From Mesonia sp. (GTDB lineage: Bacteria > Bacteroidota > Bacteroidia > Flavobacteriales > Flavobacteriaceae), in assembly GCA_012964435.1 (NCBI GenBank), contig DTTX01000041.1, positions 109,303 through 149,946 of the forward strand: DNA of 40,644 bases, written 5' to 3'. Shown piece by piece: positions 12,218-19,671 of this stretch; position 1 is the stretch's first letter; each line of letters opens with the position of its first letter. The notes below the pieces were generated by a model that did not search any database, was not told the origin of the DNA, and saw only the letters and a list, made by a program, of their open reading frames with translations. Position numbers and translations under genes: made by a program.

Positions 12218-13056
12218 AGAAGATTACTTAGTAAAAATAGATTATGTTTTGGGTTAATTACTTTTTGAGATAAATTACTGATTTTTTCAGTTAGAAATGA
12301 GGTGTTTAAAAAACTAATGTTTTTAATATATGTATATAAATATTGGTAAGTATCATCAATTTCAGAAACATTTCCACTAACTAAAAGCTGAAGTTCTTCG
12401 GTATTAAATTTTAATTGTTCTAAAGTAAATAGCACAAAATATATAAAATCTTGAGATGTATAATATTCAAAAGAATTTGCAAGTATTAGCTGTTTATCTC
12501 TTACACAACAAATATCAAATCTTTTAGTTTGAAGATGAATAAATACTATTTCGCTAGCATCAATTTTTTCAGCTTGATCTAGGCAAAGATCTATAAATAG
12601 AGTAGAGGAATGCTTGTAATTGAACGTACCGAACTTTTCAAATAGATAATTATTTATGTTCGTGTAAGGAATATAAACATTATTGGCAGAAAGCTTAGTC
12701 AACTCATCAAAAGCAATAAAATCAGTTTTTAAAATCTTAGTATTAAACTTTAAGTAATCGGTGAGTTGATCTTCAGAAAAATATACTTGAGGCACTAAAC
12801 TGTATAGGTTATTGGCAAAAAGTACATCTACATCTTTAATTCTAACCTCAATATTTTCTTCAAGATGAAATTTGAAAGCGATTTTTAATTCATCTAATAT
12901 CTTTTCAGGATCTAAAGAGTCGATAAAATCTTTAGAATAAAAATATTCAACAGTATTCTCTTTTTGATTTAGGGTACAAAAAGAAAGTCCATCTTGAGAA
13001 ATCAAGATGGACAATTTTAAATCTTTATGTTGTAGACTATTTGTCGTTGTCACCAT
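12214..13056 (-). CDS. DUF3822 family protein
   Basis: About 280 residues of a Bacteroidota-specific family usually found beside rsmD. It begins with KLSILISQDGLSFCTL, and an ASKHA-like beta-rich fold is plausible (LKLSILIS, FIDLCLDQAE), but no nucleotide-binding motif is clear. Function is unknown; neighbours suggest a link to rRNA modification or envelope maintenance, which is inference. Two starts are possible: ATG 13077 (overlap of 41 bases with the upstream gene) and ATG 13056 (20 bases). I prefer the shorter overlap. Confidence 0.8.
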   Translation of the reverse strand: MVTTTNSLQHKDLKLSILISQDGLSFCTLNQKENTVEYFYSKDFIDSLDPEKILDELKIAFKFHLEENIEVRIKDVDVLFANNLYSLVPQVYFSEDQLTDYLKFNTKILKTDFIAFDELTKLSANNVYIPYTNINNYLFEKFGTFNYKHSSTLFIDLCLDQAEKIDASEIVFIHLQTKRFDICCVRDKQLILANSFEYYTSQDFIYFVLFTLEQLKFNTEELQLLVSGNVSEIDDTYQYLYTYIKNISFLNTSFLTEKISNLSQKVINPKHNLFLLSNLL

Positions 13057-13687
13057 ATTTTCTTGGCCAGTTACCATTGGTATTAACCTCTGTCATAGAA
13101 CCTAACTGAATATATTCTCCTCTTACGTTATCTACTGTAAGCATTTGTTTTTCTTGATTTAATAAATGCTCATCTTGATCTGCTAAAACGTCGGCTTTAT
13201 CAATTTTTACTTCAAAAACAGGAATATAACTATCGTTTTTATAGATTTTACCTGCTTCGATTTCAAATTTCTTTCCATCGGTGTAAGGTACATTCATCAT
13301 CGTTTTGTAACGATCAGATTTTTTGAATAAAGAATCTTTAACAGCAGTGTAACCAAGTGTATCGATAATCGTTTCAGATTTATACTCATCTACACCGTAA
13401 GTTGCTTTATACTCTTCATCTAATACAGTAGTATCTCTACGTTGAGTAACTACAAATTCTGCTGTATCGATAAATTGCACTAAACTATCCCAATCGCCAC
13501 TATATTTACCCACAACTTGTTTATGAGCTAATTGAGCTTTACGTATATCTTTTAATTTATCAATTACTTTAGGATATCTGGCATCTCTTACTTTGTTGAA
13601 TTGAATTGGCTCGTAAACTGCATTAAAAGTTAGGTAACCTAAAAATCCAATAACGACCCATAATAGTAATTGAATAACAATTTTCAT
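13037..13687 (-). CDS. Conserved hypothetical protein with N-terminal membrane anchor
   Basis: 216 residues. One hydrophobic helix (residues about 3-22, VIQLLLWVVIGFLGYLTF) is followed by a hydrophilic, Lys/Asp/Tyr-rich domain that would sit outside the inner membrane as in a type II anchor. After the helix comes ARYPKVIDKLKDIRKAQLAHK with VVGKYSGDWDSLVQF, which resembles the pseudopilin-like start and conserved core of a Bacteroidota family of unknown function. It overlaps the DUF3822 gene. A -7 box lies 39-46 bases upstream of its ATG, so this is probably the first gene of the four-gene minus run. Confidence 0.78.
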   Translation of the reverse strand: MKIVIQLLLWVVIGFLGYLTFNAVYEPIQFNKVRDARYPKVIDKLKDIRKAQLAHKQVVGKYSGDWDSLVQFIDTAEFVVTQRRDTTVLDEEYKATYGVDEYKSETIIDTLGYTAVKDSLFKKSDRYKTMMNVPYTDGKKFEIEAGKIYKNDSYIPVFEVKIDKADVLADQDEHLLNQEKQMLTVDNVRGEYIQLGSMTEVNTNGNWPRKYGDNDK

Positions 13688-13812: not shown

Positions 13813-15237
13813 ATGACTTCCACAGAATTTTATAAACTTTTAATCTCAGATTTTCCTTTTACGGTTACTACACAACAAGATGTAGCACTTCAAAAATTGT
13901 CTGCTTTTATTTTATCAGAAAAAACCGATCAACTTTTTATCCTCAAAGGTTATGCCGGAACGGGTAAAACTTCAATAATTGGTACGATTGTTAAAAATTT
14001 ATGGAAGGTAACGATGAGTCCGGTACTTGCCGCACCTACCGGTAGAGCTGCAAAAGTGATGAGTAATTACTCGGGTTATCAAGCACAAACCATTCACCGA
14101 AAAATTTATTACCCTAAAAAATCTAGTGGGGGTAAAATGCAATTTGTGCTTCAAAAAAATAAGCATAAGAATACCGTTTTTATTATAGATGAAGCTTCGA
14201 TGATCTCAGATTTTGGTGGTGATGCTAAACTATTTGAAAACGGATCGCTTTTAGACGATTTAATCGATTATGTATATTCCGGTAGAAATTGTAAACTTAT
14301 TTTTATTGGTGATACCGCCCAGTTACCACCGGTAAAGTTAGATTTGAGTCCGGCTTTAGATCAAGATAAGTTAAGTTTAAGTTATCAAAAAGATGTCGAC
14401 CATATTGAGTTGAATGAAGTTGTTCGACAACAACAAGAAAGTGGAATTTTGCATAATGCTACTTTAATTCGAGAGGCGATTAAAAATCAGTTTTTTGAAG
14501 ATTTTAAATTTGAATTAAATATTGCCGACGATTTTGTGCGTCTTGTTGATGGTTATGAAATTATGGATGCCATTAACGATTCTTACAGTTCTGGAGGTTA
14601 CGAAGAAACTGCCATCGTAGTAAGGTCTAACAAGCGGGCAAATATCTATAATGAACAAATTAGAAGCCGAATTCTCTTTCAGGAAAACGAAATTGCAGCG
14701 GGAGACTTTTTAATGGTGGTAAAAAATAATTATTTCTGGGTAAAACCTAGTTCTGATGCAGGTTTTATTGCTAACGGAGATATTATTGAAATACTAGAAA
14801 TATTTGAAATAATCGATCTTTATGGCTTTCGTTTTGCTGAAGTAAAAGTACAAATGGTCGATTACCCAAAAATGAATCCTTTTGAAACGGTATTGATTCT
14901 AGATACGCTTACGGTAAATGCACCATCTTTAACTTATGAGCAATCCAACGAATTATATCAAGAAGTTCAAAAAGATTATGCAAATGAAACTTCAAAATAT
15001 AAGAAGTTTCAGAAAGTAAAAAACAATAAGTACTTTAATGCTTTACAGGTAAAGTTTAGTTATGCTATGACTTGCCACAAGTCTCAAGGCGGGCAATGGG
15101 ACAATGTTTTTGTAGAACAACCGTATTTAAAAGATGGAGTAAATGAAGATTACTTGCGCTGGTTATATACAGCCTGTACGCGAGCAAAAGAAAAATTGTA
15201 TCTCATAGGTTTTAAAGATAATTTTTTCAATAGCTAA
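13813..15237 (+). CDS. RecD-like superfamily 1 DNA helicase
   Basis: 474-residue ATP-dependent helicase of the RecD/Dda type. Walker A GYAGTGKTS (46-54), motif Ia APTGRAAKVMS, TIHRKIY, the Walker B region FIIDEASMIS, motif III FIGDTAQLPPV, motif V CHKSQGGQWDNVFVE and motif VI YTACTRAKEKLYLIG are all in order. It lacks the long N-terminal domain of RecD2, so it is closer to Dda/PIF1-like single-unit enzymes. Likely role in replication or repair on single-stranded DNA; partners RecB and RecC are not nearby. It stands alone between divergent promoters. Confidence 0.92.
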   Translation: MTSTEFYKLLISDFPFTVTTQQDVALQKLSAFILSEKTDQLFILKGYAGTGKTSIIGTIVKNLWKVTMSPVLAAPTGRAAKVMSNYSGYQAQTIHRKIYYPKKSSGGKMQFVLQKNKHKNTVFIIDEASMISDFGGDAKLFENGSLLDDLIDYVYSGRNCKLIFIGDTAQLPPVKLDLSPALDQDKLSLSYQKDVDHIELNEVVRQQQESGILHNATLIREAIKNQFFEDFKFELNIADDFVRLVDGYEIMDAINDSYSSGGYEETAIVVRSNKRANIYNEQIRSRILFQENEIAAGDFLMVVKNNYFWVKPSSDAGFIANGDIIEILEIFEIIDLYGFRFAEVKVQMVDYPKMNPFETVLILDTLTVNAPSLTYEQSNELYQEVQKDYANETSKYKKFQKVKNNKYFNALQVKFSYAMTCHKSQGGQWDNVFVEQPYLKDGVNEDYLRWLYTACTRAKEKLYLIGFKDNFFNS

Positions 15238-15316: not shown

Positions 15317-17188
15317 TTGGATAAAAATAAATTAAAGGTAATCGCGATGATTCCGGCTCGATATGCCGCAACGAGATTCCCAGGCAAGCTAATGCAAGAT
15401 CTTAATGGTAAATCTGTTATCTTAAGAACCTATGAGGCTGCTTTAAGTACAAATCTATTTCAAGAAGTATATGTTGTTACCGATAGCGATATAATTTTTA
15501 ATGAAATTACAGCTAACGGTGGTAAGGCAATTTTAAGCAAGAAAGCGCACGAGTGCGGAAGTGATCGTATTGCTGAAGCCGTGGAAGATATGGATGTTGA
15601 TATTGTAGTAAACGTTCAAGGTGATGAGCCATTTACAGCTCAAGAAAGTTTAAAAAAAGTATTAGATGTTTTCTACAGTGAAGATGCAGATCAAATAGAT
15701 TTAGCGTCTTTGATGACTCCTATAAAGATAAATGATGAAATTACCGATCCTAATACAGTAAAAGTAATTGTAGATCAAAATAACTTTGCCTTATATTTTT
15801 CAAGGTCACCAATACCATACCCAAGAGATCAAGATGTTTTTACGACTTACTTTAAACATAAAGGCATCTACGCATTTCGTAAAAGTGCTTTGATGGATTT
15901 CTATAATTTACCTATGAAAAGTATTGAAGCTTCAGAAAAAATTGAATGCTTACGTTATTTGGAGTACGGTAAGAATATTAAAATGATAGAAAGCGAAGTA
16001 GTAGGAGTAGAAATAGATACTCCGGAAGATCTTGAAGCTGCTAAACAACTACTATCTTCTCAAGAAAGAAAACTATTATCAGAAGATAATGATCTTTCAA
16101 TTTCAAAACCAAAACATAAAAATTTCCCGATGGTTCCTCGAGTTTTATTCGGTAAAGGTTGTTTTGATCAATTACCTGAAATTCTAAATGAAAAACGTTC
16201 TATTGGAGCACCATTTATTTATTTGGTAGATGATGTTTTTGAAAATAATAAATCATTTATTGAAAGAATAAAACTTAAGGGAAATGATAAAATATTCTTT
16301 GTCTCTGCTGAATATGAGCCTAAAACCAATCAAGTAGATGTATTAGTTGAAAAAATTAAAACCGAGTTCCAATTATTACCCAGCGGAATTATAGGAATTG
16401 GAGGTGGAACTTTAATGGACTTAGCTAAGGCTGTATCTATTTTACTTAAAAATACTGGTTTAGCTGAAGATTATCAAGGTTGGGATCTAGTTTCTAAAAA
16501 AGCAATTTATCATGTTGGTGTTCCTACAGTTTCCGGTACAGGAGCAGAAGTTTCTAGAACTACCGTGCTAACAGGACCTAACAAAAAACTAGGTATAAAC
16601 TCAGATTTTACTCCGTTTGATCAAGTAATCCTAGATTACGATCTTACTCTTGGAGTTCCTAAAGATCAATGGTTTTATACAGGGATGGACTGTTATATTC
16701 ATTGTATAGAATCTTTAAATGGAACTTACTTAAATACATTTAGTGAAAGTTATGGTCAAAAGGCTGAAGAATTATGTTTAGAGATTTTCTTGGGAGATCA
16801 TCTTTCAGACGAACAAATGAGAGCTAAATTAATGATGGCTTCTTGGCACGGCGGGATGAGCATTGCTTATTCTCAAGTAGGTGTTGCTCACGCGATGAGT
16901 TATGGCTTAGCCTATGTTCTCGGTACAAAACACGGAATAGGAAATTGTATAGTTTTCGATCATTTAGAAGAATTTTATCCTGAAGGGGTTAAGATATTTA
17001 AACAAATGAAAGAAAAGCACGGTATCAAATTACCACAAGGTCTTTGTAAGGATTTACCAGAAAAGGATTTAAATACAATGATAGAGGTTTCTCTACAAAT
17101 GGATCCGCTTTGGGAAAATGCTTTAGGTAAAAACTGGAGAGAAATTATGACACCAAAAAAAATGCGTGAGCTCTATTTAAAAATGTAA
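15317..17188 (+). CDS. Fusion: CMP-Kdo synthetase (KdsB) + KdnB-like Kdo 8-dehydrogenase
   Basis: 623 residues with two complete enzyme domains. Residues about 1-245 are Kds[22 protein letters not shown] near 97-104 and a C-terminal [13 protein letters not shown]. KdsB activates Kdo with CTP to CMP-Kdo for lipopolysaccharide. A linker of about 25 residues follows. Residues about 268-623 are an iron-containing alcohol dehydrogenase: [15 protein letters not shown], nucleotide motif [24 protein letters not shown] and metal ligands Asp458, His462, His525 and His539 (spacing as in FucO). The closest known functional relative of this pair is KdnB of Shewanella, which oxidises C8 of Kdo on the way to 8-amino-Kdo. 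Start is a TTG; no ATG precedes the PARY motif except one inside it. No aminotransferase (KdnA) is in the window. Substrate specificity of the second domain is inferred. Confidence 0.9.
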
Positions 17189-17193
17189 GTTAG

Positions 17194-18504
17194 TTAATTA
17201 CTCACCGCACTTTTATAAACTTTTAGACAACGTTCCCGAGCTTCTTTATGGTCAACCATAGGTTCGGGATAGTTTTTTGTTCCATATTCCGGAACCCATT
17301 TTTTGATGTATTTTTCTTCTTTATCGAACTTTTCTTTTTGAGACATGGGGTTAAAAATTCTAAAATAGGGAACTGCATCGACGCCGCTTCCGGCAACCCA
17401 TTGCCAGTTTCCTACGTTAGAAGACATTTCGTAATCCAACAACTTTTCAGCAAAATAGGCTTCGCCCCAACGCCAATCGATTAATAAATGTTTACAAAGA
17501 AAACTTCCTACGACCATTCGAACGCGATTATGCATAAAACCGGACTCATTTAACTGTCGCATCCCAGCATCAACTAAAGGATAACCGGTTTTTCCTTCTT
17601 TCCATTTTTTAAATTCACTCTTATTGTTTCGCCATTCGATACGATCGTATTTCTTTTTGAAAGCATCGGTGACCGTTTCTGGGAAATGATAGAGAATTTG
17701 CATAAAAAATTCACGCCAAATGAGTTCTTCAAAAAAAGTTTCATCTTTCACTTGAATTGCCTTTTTTACCATTTTTCGAACACTTACTGTTCCGAATCTT
17801 AAATGTGTACTCAAATGTGAAGTAGCATCTTTGGCCGGCAAATTTCTTTTATCGTCATATTCATTCATCATCGTTTTAGTTACGATGTAATCAGGAACTT
17901 CAATCGATGATTTTTTAAAACCAATATCACTTAATGAGAGATTGGGTAAACGTGTATTTTTAATCAGATTGTCTAAATAATCATTGGTATAAAAAATACG
18001 TAAGTTGTCTTCACTGAAATTACTTTTCCAGGTTTTCATATAAGGTGTGTACACCAAATAAGGATCGCCGTCTTTTTTAACGACTTCATCTTTTTCAAAA
18101 ATCACCTGATCTTTATACGTGGTGAATTTTATGTCTTTATCTTCCAATAAAGAGGAAATTTTTTCATCACGCTCTTTCGCATAAGGTTCGTAATCACGGT
18201 TCGTGATTACTTCAGCAATAGAATAATCTTTTATAAGTTGTTGGAATACTTTTTCCGGTTTTCCTTCATACATCGCAATAGAACTATCGTAATTTTCCTG
18301 AAGTTCTTTTCGCATAGTTTGTAATTGCTGAAAAATAAAAGTTACCCGAGCATCATCATCAGGTAGATCTTTTAAAATTTCAGTATCAAAAATAAAAATG
18401 GGTAAGACAGGATAGTCACTTTGTAAAGCACGATAAAAACCAATATTATCATCTAATCGCAAATCGCGTCGAAACCAAAAAATAGTATATTTCTCTTGAC
18501 TCAT
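17194..18504 (-). CDS. phr: Deoxyribodipyrimidine photo-lyase / cryptochrome family
   Basis: 436-residue class I photolyase-type flavoprotein that repairs UV-induced cyclobutane pyrimidine dimers using blue light. The N-terminal alpha/beta antenna domain starts IFWFRRDLRLDDN. The FAD-binding helical domain holds WREFFMQILYHFP, FMHNRVRMVVGSFL and LDYEMSSNVGNWQWVAGSG, including the conserved Trp/Asn residues for lesion and FAD contact. The start codon overlaps the stop of the SDR gene by one base (TAATG), so expression is coupled. It is the last gene of an SRPBCC-SDR-phr operon. Confidence 0.93.
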   Translation of the reverse strand: MSQEKYTIFWFRRDLRLDDNIGFYRALQSDYPVLPIFIFDTEILKDLPDDDARVTFIFQQLQTMRKELQENYDSSIAMYEGKPEKVFQQLIKDYSIAEVITNRDYEPYAKERDEKISSLLEDKDIKFTTYKDQVIFEKDEVVKKDGDPYLVYTPYMKTWKSNFSEDNLRIFYTNDYLDNLIKNTRLPNLSLSDIGFKKSSIEVPDYIVTKTMMNEYDDKRNLPAKDATSHLSTHLRFGTVSVRKMVKKAIQVKDETFFEELIWREFFMQILYHFPETVTDAFKKKYDRIEWRNNKSEFKKWKEGKTGYPLVDAGMRQLNESGFMHNRVRMVVGSFLCKHLLIDWRWGEAYFAEKLLDYEMSSNVGNWQWVAGSGVDAVPYFRIFNPMSQKEKFDKEEKYIKKWVPEYGTKNYPEPMVDHKEARERCLKVYKSAVSN

Positions 18505-19209: not shown

Positions 19210-19671
19210 TTAATATTTTCCGAATAATTCTTCTAACTTTTGCTGTCTATAGCTAAAAATTTCTTCCAATTTATTCTTCACGATAAAAGGATGTACCAAT
19301 TGCCCTAAAAAGCCAAATGGAAGCTTGTAGTGAATAATATCTTCCATTTCAACACCGCCTTCAATTTCTTTAATAAAATGTTTGTGATGCCAAAGTTTAT
19401 AAGGGCCAAAACGTTGTTCATCAACAAAAAACTCGTTATCTTTTACGTGAGTAATTTCAGTTACCCATTTGGTTTTAATACCGGCGACGGGCGTTACAAT
19501 ATATTGTATAACTTGACCTTGATACATTTTACGGTCGGCTCCATCAATAATATCAAACCCCATATAATCGGGAGTGATCGTTTTTAAATTAGCCGGATCT
19601 GATAGAAACTCCCAAGCTTTAGCTTTACTTATAGGAAGTTTTTGCGTTTTGTGAAGTTTATAAATTTTCAT
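19210..19671 (-). CDS. SRPBCC/START-like ligand-binding protein
   Basis: 153 residues with the helix-grip fold pattern of the SRPBCC superfamily (polyketide cyclase / CoxG-like). It starts with LPISKAKAWEFLSDPANLKTITP, the typical first strand-helix unit, and ends in a long C-terminal helix (VKNKLEEIFSYRQQKLEELF). Members bind hydrophobic small molecules; ligand is unknown here. It is the promoter-proximal gene of the photolyase operon, an arrangement common in Flavobacteria. A 30-bp palindrome lies 23-52 bases upstream of its ATG. Confidence 0.85.
   Translation of the reverse strand: MKIYKLHKTQKLPISKAKAWEFLSDPANLKTITPDYMGFDIIDGADRKMYQGQVIQYIVTPVAGIKTKWVTEITHVKDNEFFVDEQRFGPYKLWHHKHFIKEIEGGVEMEDIIHYKLPFGFLGQLVHPFIVKNKLEEIFSYRQQKLEELFGKY

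Follow-up and report, generated by a model that had tools for sequence, protein, structure and literature searches.

It is established that KdnB oxidises Kdo at C8 and that KdnA aminates the product, as reported by Gattis 2013 and Zachman-Brockmeyer 2016. In Shewanella a cytidylyltransferase specific for the 8-amino form (Kdo8N) is a separate activity. In the cited parts of two sources, the Kdo residue joining lipid A to the core is regarded as nearly universal, and the 8-amino form of Kdo as peculiar to Shewanella (PMC6357163; PMC4465638). The former terms Kdo8N a hallmark of Shewanella; the latter states that, Shewanella excepted, every Gram-negative has Kdo in its LPS, and it names Shewanella as the exception to labelling with 8-azido-Kdo. 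Kdo8N is reported for Shewanella in passages of two further papers (PMC3210612; PMC4052302), the second of which, where it deals with Shewanella, also mentions “other bacterial species”. KdnB is listed as a separate subfamily of iron-type alcohol dehydrogenases (Fe-ADH), FeADH3/cd08184, in a table of PMC5125639, and this table line agrees with KdnB oxidising Kdo at C8. Our literature search, which covered titles and the starts of abstracts and included few subscription papers, returned no report of Kdo8N from Bacteroidota, none of a KdsB-KdnB fusion, and no paper combining Mesonia, lipopolysaccharide and Kdo.

The window analysed here, the whole stretch of 40,644 nucleotides from a Mesonia sp. 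genome (G000), carries a gene in which a CMP-Kdo synthetase (KdsB) is joined to a KdnB-type domain. The enzymes are known, their arrangement in one protein is new, and the gene is composed as follows:

15317..17188, plus strand: KdsB-KdnB fusion gene, a single open reading frame of 623 aa with a TTG start, stop codon included
15335..16063, plus strand: KdsB domain of CMP-Kdo synthetase type, aa 7-249, the sole KdsB detected in the genome
16010..16012, plus strand: Glu232, two residues before the conserved Asp234, which marks the KdsBs of KdnB genomes
16064..16111, plus strand: linker, approximately aa 250-265, of varying length among fusions
16112..17179, plus strand: KdnB domain, Kdo 8-oxidase/dehydrogenase type by homology, aa 266-621
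16688..16690, plus strand: Asp458, predicted metal ligand by homology
16700..16702, plus strand: His462, predicted metal ligand by homology
16889..16891, plus strand: His525, predicted metal ligand by homology
16931..16933, plus strand: His539, predicted metal ligand by homology

The frame has no internal stops, and the fusion of the relative G014 also starts with TTG. Pfam matches cover both halves (CTP_transf_3 at aa 9-221, E 1e-48; Fe-ADH at aa 275-440, E 1e-24; ADH_Fe_C at aa 454-556, E 1e-11). The KdsB half is complete and scores above the NCBIfam cut-offs for TIGR00466 (182.4 against 155.2 bits) and NF003952 (259.3 against 193 bits). Thus, the open reading frame and the Pfam and NCBIfam matches agree with the initial annotation, which had described one uninterrupted frame holding a complete KdsB and a complete Fe-ADH. 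The four metal ligands it had named are found at the claimed positions: alignment to 5k8c places the same residues at D458, H462, H525 and H539, which are invariant in all 99 aligned fusions. The Asp pair D103 and D234 of the KdsB domain is likewise kept in 99/99. In the cited part of PMC3149649 the Mg-binding Asp residues of Aquifex KdsB are D95 and D219; mapped by motif and alignment offset only, D103 and D234 are the predicted counterparts of this pair, and Asp234 should, by the same offset, be the Mg-A ligand (Aquifex D219).

The second domain is of the KdnB kind, as had been proposed. A phmmer search against PDB sequences placed 3rf7 (E 8e-130) and 5k8c (E 5e-126) far ahead of the next Fe-ADH (7e-23), so that the best match did not fall in an unrelated Fe-ADH subfamily. 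The entry 5k8c is the KdnB of Shewanella oneidensis, named 3-deoxy-alpha-D-manno-octulosonate 8-oxidase in the PDB; 3rf7 is Sden_2133 of Shewanella denitrificans and of KdnB type. A Foldseek search with the predicted structure of the fusion ranked the same two entries at the top (3rf7, 52% identity, TMt 0.93; 5k8c, 50% identity, TMt 0.92), and the other half matched KdsB structures. The AlphaFold model behind this search, built on a 39-row alignment from which L163 (internal stop), L145, L172 and L177 had been dropped, is of moderate confidence (mean pLDDT 76, pTM 0.66). Short stretches in both halves fall under pLDDT 50, as does the linker region (aa 250-273). The gap between 5E-126-level and 7e-23-level matches together with the Foldseek ranking rules out a generic Fe-ADH domain.

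The initial annotation had found no KdnA-like aminotransferase in the window and had suggested that one might lie elsewhere. A DegT-family search of the genome gave 13 matches, and KdnA was located at G000:C32:26245-27435, with 5k8b as best PDB match (E 7e-135; next 2e-54). A fusion whose KdnA partner has been lost is thereby rejected, KdnA being present on another contig. A KdsB-family search returned the fusion as sole match. The stand-alone KdsB that the annotation had proposed to look for was not detected in this draft genome of ∼90.5% completeness, so that a second KdsB serving plain Kdo may have escaped detection. With KdnA in the genome and the fusion as the only detected KdsB, the product of the pathway is most likely CMP-8-amino-Kdo (CMP-Kdo8N). 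Of the two end products previously considered, Kdo8N is thus favoured and an 8-oxo or other derivative has become less likely.

We propose that the fusion is a bifunctional enzyme of the Kdo8N pathway and give this reading a probability of roughly 85%. The KdnB domain would act on free Kdo and oxidise its C8, giving the 8-aldehyde, which KdnA, encoded elsewhere, would aminate to Kdo8N. The KdsB domain of the fusion would then couple Kdo8N to CMP, from which it could be transferred to lipid A. Glu232, two residues from the active-site Asp, could pair with the C8 ammonium and so tune KdsB to the amino sugar. Through the fusion, the oxidase and the activating enzyme that matches it would become a single allele. 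Since the fused domains are steps 1 and 3 and KdnA is step 2, the earlier suggestion that the fusion couples C8 oxidation to activation cannot refer to a direct hand-over that bypasses KdnA.

To what extent do the two enzymes occur together? In 60 genomes including G000, the set with KdnA (E 1e-70) was identical to the set with KdnB (matches at least 47% identical, other Fe-ADHs at most 30%): 24 had both and 36 neither. Among 397 genomes drawn evenly from the Flavobacteriaceae and searched at E 1e-110, KdnA was found in 251 and KdnB in 255; 246 had both, 5 KdnA only, 9 KdnB only and 137 neither. Of the 14 discordant genomes, eleven have a listed completeness below 90%; the other three, G231 (96%), G282 (99%) and G401 (93%), all have KdnB and no detected KdnA. 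When 395 genomes were drawn evenly from the phylum, 27 had a KdnA match (E 1e-85), 11 within the family (G000 included) and 16 outside it, the latter comprising 10 at least 50% identical and 6 at 40–46%. One genome, G552, has a KdnA-like protein (40%) and at E 1e-25 gave no match to KdsB or to KdnB. The predicted pathway genes are common in flavobacteria. These counts bear on whether the Fe-ADH domain might act on another sugar, or deliver 8-oxo-Kdo as end product. Substrates of Fe-ADHs are not readable from sequence alone, and G282, G401, G231 and G329 have a KdnB-type domain with KdnA not detected. Set against the ∼50% identity to the KdnB 5k8c, the strong co-occurrence with KdnA and the physical fusion to a Kdo-activating enzyme, such a substrate or product is very improbable.

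The fusion is not peculiar to this Mesonia and occurs widely in Flavobacteriaceae. Matches at E 1e-180 or better were found in 42 of the 397 family genomes and are uninterrupted across both domains in 39, G000 included; of the remaining three, G290 and G183 are interrupted by stops, and in G293 the match begins only at residue 223. As the same uninterrupted architecture recurs in 39/397 genomes and in named isolates of several genera, an assembly chimera is ruled out. The named genera among the best 80 loci include Aequorivita, Aquimarina, Altibacter, Ulvibacter, Cochleicola, Aureisphaera, Luteirhabdus, Patiriisocius and Mesonia. KdnA was detected in 37 of the 39 genomes with an uninterrupted fusion and was not detected in G231 and G329 (96% and 76% complete). 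In a plasmid search, none of the 1331 matching records covered 80% of the query.

The benefit of the fusion may lie outside catalysis, so that it fixes only the expression ratio and the joint inheritance of KdnB and the matching KdsB, with no hand-over between them. Amination by KdnA separates the two fused steps, the short linker varies in length and is modelled with low confidence, and most genomes with KdnA and KdnB manage unfused (the fusion is uninterrupted in 37/246). The fusion has, on the other hand, been kept in many genera, though this is not direct evidence against such a role. We regard the matter as evenly balanced. In the unfused family genomes examined the usual order is kdsB, a HAD hydrolase (present in 19/20 regions), sometimes a CAT-like acetyltransferase, then kdnB. 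Examples of the accompanying genes are a HAD hydrolase at L010:2627-3328, a CAT-like acetyltransferase at L013:835-1449 and a PlsC-like acyltransferase at L005:3343-3879.

We compared 23 KdsBs from genomes with KdnA and KdnB with 21 from genomes without them, leaving out six far rows as well as G031 and G036, which were set aside because they stood among the KdnA/KdnB rows on a tree already seen. Only alignment columns 147 and 232 fully separate the two sets. Column 232 holds Glu in 23/23 of the former, and Gly (20) or Ser (1) in the latter. Column 147 is Cys, Ser, Ala, Thr or Val within the fusions, so no single residue marks it. Glu was also found in 14/14 additional genomes with KdnA and KdnB, of which ten belong to other families, in 5/5 more checked afterwards, in 20/20 family genomes picked by KdnB (one, G282, without detected KdnA) and in 99/99 aligned fusions. 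Fifteen of the 113 fusion loci were not recovered by the motif, and 13 of these are one long open reading frame with the Glu motif (L094 and L095 were not among the loci read). None of 30 further family genomes without KdnA has Glu; 28 have Gly, three of these read by eye because the motif pattern missed them, one has Ser and one Ala. Genus-mates differ as predicted: G168 has Glu and KdnA and G356 has Gly without KdnA, and the same holds for G372 and G191, respectively.

On a tree of 124 KdsB rows, Glu is present in all 71 KdnB-linked rows (six of them, the fusions L099, L100, L120, L138, L155 and L173, had no KdnA test, and G282 is without detected KdnA) and in 1 of 53 rows without KdnA, 14 of which (G484 and higher handles) had no KdnB test. 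The trees carry 19 of the 99 aligned fusions, picked by hand; G092 (Gly) and G156 (Ala) were read and are absent from the 124 rows, and divergent KdsBs were left off (9 from the first tree, 13 from later ones, G042 among them). All KdsBs compared are from Bacteroidota. Both this tree and a smaller one of 76 rows are quick trees, the larger without a mixture model, and their branching is provisional. Residue 232 changes four times on the 124 rows, and three independent pairs on well-supported branches are all concordant (sign-test p 0.25). Once ancestry is counted, the association with Glu is therefore statistically weak.

The single exception among the rows without KdnA is G036, which has Glu and neither KdnA nor KdnB; its KdsB (G036:C1:3930896-3931621, L030) is stand-alone and Glu-marked in a single-contig genome that is 100% complete. 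It either breaks the Glu rule or reflects a recent loss. G031, which stands among the KdnA/KdnB rows in the smaller trees, lacks KdnA and KdnB and has Gly. A divergent KdnA/KdnB group is formed by G042, G517, G566, G609, G665 and G797, with KdnA 42–46% and KdnB 45–48% identical to those of G000. None of the seven KdsBs in these six genomes has Glu: that of G042 is 31% identical, and those of G566, G517, G609, G797 (two) and G665 are off the tree as well. These may not be true KdnA/KdnB; otherwise the Glu rule breaks down in this group, and it then holds in 71/78 instead of 71/71. The kdnB-kdnA pairs are adjacent in G517:C20, G566:C7, G609:C65, G665:C1 and G797:C36 (KdnB loci L294-L298), and G797 has a second KdsB beside its pair (C36:42669-43433). 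These divergent pairs may belong to a second pathway, one that makes an 8-amino ulosonic acid.

We propose Glu232 as a specificity residue of KdsB. The KdsB domain might alternatively be unselective and activate both Kdo and Kdo8N, with Glu232 an inherited lineage mark that has no effect on specificity. The Glu-bearing KdsBs cluster on the tree, which leaves few independent changes, G036 retains Glu, and the KdsBs beside the divergent KdnA/KdnB group do without it. The 3/3 concordance of the independent pairs, the two pairs of genus-mates and the placement of residue 232 two positions from the conserved Asp speak against an unselective domain, which we consider the less probable reading.

The relatives within Mesonia place the fusion in a slot between two conserved neighbours:

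13813..15237, plus strand: helicase (AAA_30/UvrD_C_2), left border of the slot in 15/15 Mesonia relatives
17194..18504, minus strand: DNA photolyase, right border of the slot in 9/15 Mesonia relatives

In all 15 relatives a kdsB or a fusion follows the same helicase gene, and in nine the photolyase lies on the other side, three with the fusion and six without. No photolyase was found in the stretch examined in G001, G006, G007, G009, G012 and G013, so the right border differs there. Two further proteins encoded in the window (13037-13687 and 19210-19671, both minus strand) are conserved by the slot in many Mesonia relatives and have no Pfam match (E 0.001). Four of the 16 Mesonia genomes have the fusion and KdnA; the other 12 have neither. 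In all four, kdnA lies between nitroreductase and ribBA genes; in 11 of the 12 without it, nitroreductase and ribBA are neighbours with no kdnA between them, and in G004 no nitroreductase was found beside ribBA.

The closest of the 15 relatives, G011, is 98% identical to G000 in the helicase and 96% in the photolyase; its KdsB is 69% identical, there is no KdnB, and kdnA is absent from its own site. Nucleotide identity between the two genomes is 91–98% through the helicase to ∼15150, 59–79% across kdsB, and 92–97% in the photolyase windows from 17189. With clades picked by flank identity once the tree was known, the AU test rejected the KdsBs of G000 and G011 as sisters (p 0.0002) and those of six close species as one group (p 0.0002). 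A separate AU test did not reject all 16 Mesonia KdsBs as one clade (p 0.35). The same slot in Mesonia thus holds either the fusion or a stand-alone Gly-type KdsB, which is a slot exchange. The fused rows form one group on the 76-row tree (SH-aLRT 86). On the 124-row tree ten stand-alone KdsBs of KdnA-negative genomes, eight from Mesonia and those of G022 and G069, fall inside the fused group (95), provisionally as if they had come from a fusion minus its KdnB half.

Taken together, the fusion itself is of less interest than how widely the predicted Kdo8N pathway occurs, the exchange at the Mesonia slot and the Glu/Gly marker. The genes predict Kdo8N for a large share of Flavobacteriaceae (246/397 with both KdnA and KdnB), many of which are marine. 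A more far-reaching reading is that in most Flavobacteriaceae the sugar next to lipid A is Kdo8N, toggled in evolution by swaps of kdsB alleles in one slot, Glu-type (alone or fused) accompanied by kdnA and Gly-type with kdnA absent, the Glu or Gly by the catalytic Asp setting which sugar is activated. We hold this tentatively, at a little under even odds. The genes also provide natural close pairs, Mesonia with and without the pathway, and the hypothesis that one residue governs which substrate KdsB chooses. Were KdsB selective, KdnA and KdnB would be expected to be essential in such genomes, and labelling with 8-azido-Kdo would be expected to fail, as the cited part of PMC4465638 reports for Shewanella.

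Compared with described systems, the KdnB domain shares 50–52% identity over its length and the same four metal-ligand residues with 5k8c and 3rf7, which are also its best structural matches. Their chains are KdnB alone (358 and 375 aa), whereas the Mesonia KdnB is the C-terminal part of a fusion with KdsB. The KdnA of G000 aligns with that of Shewanella oneidensis (5k8b) over residues 1-390 of 403 and is unlinked to the fusion, lying between nitroreductase and ribBA. Like the KdsBs of E. coli (NC_000913 kdsB) and of the structures 1gqc, 3k8d and 2y6p, the Mesonia domain is complete and conserves the active-site Asp pair; it differs in being fused and in being the single detected KdsB of a genome that carries KdnA and KdnB, and two residues before the Asp it has Glu where E. 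coli KdsB has Gly. The unfused Flavobacteriaceae clusters, ordered kdsB, HAD hydrolase, (CAT-like acetyltransferase), kdnB and PlsC-like acyltransferase, have the same kinds of KdsB and KdnB with a Glu-type KdsB, and their KdnA is unlinked in many and adjacent in some (G168). There kdsB and kdnB are separate genes, mostly with one or two genes between them, whereas in Mesonia they are fused.
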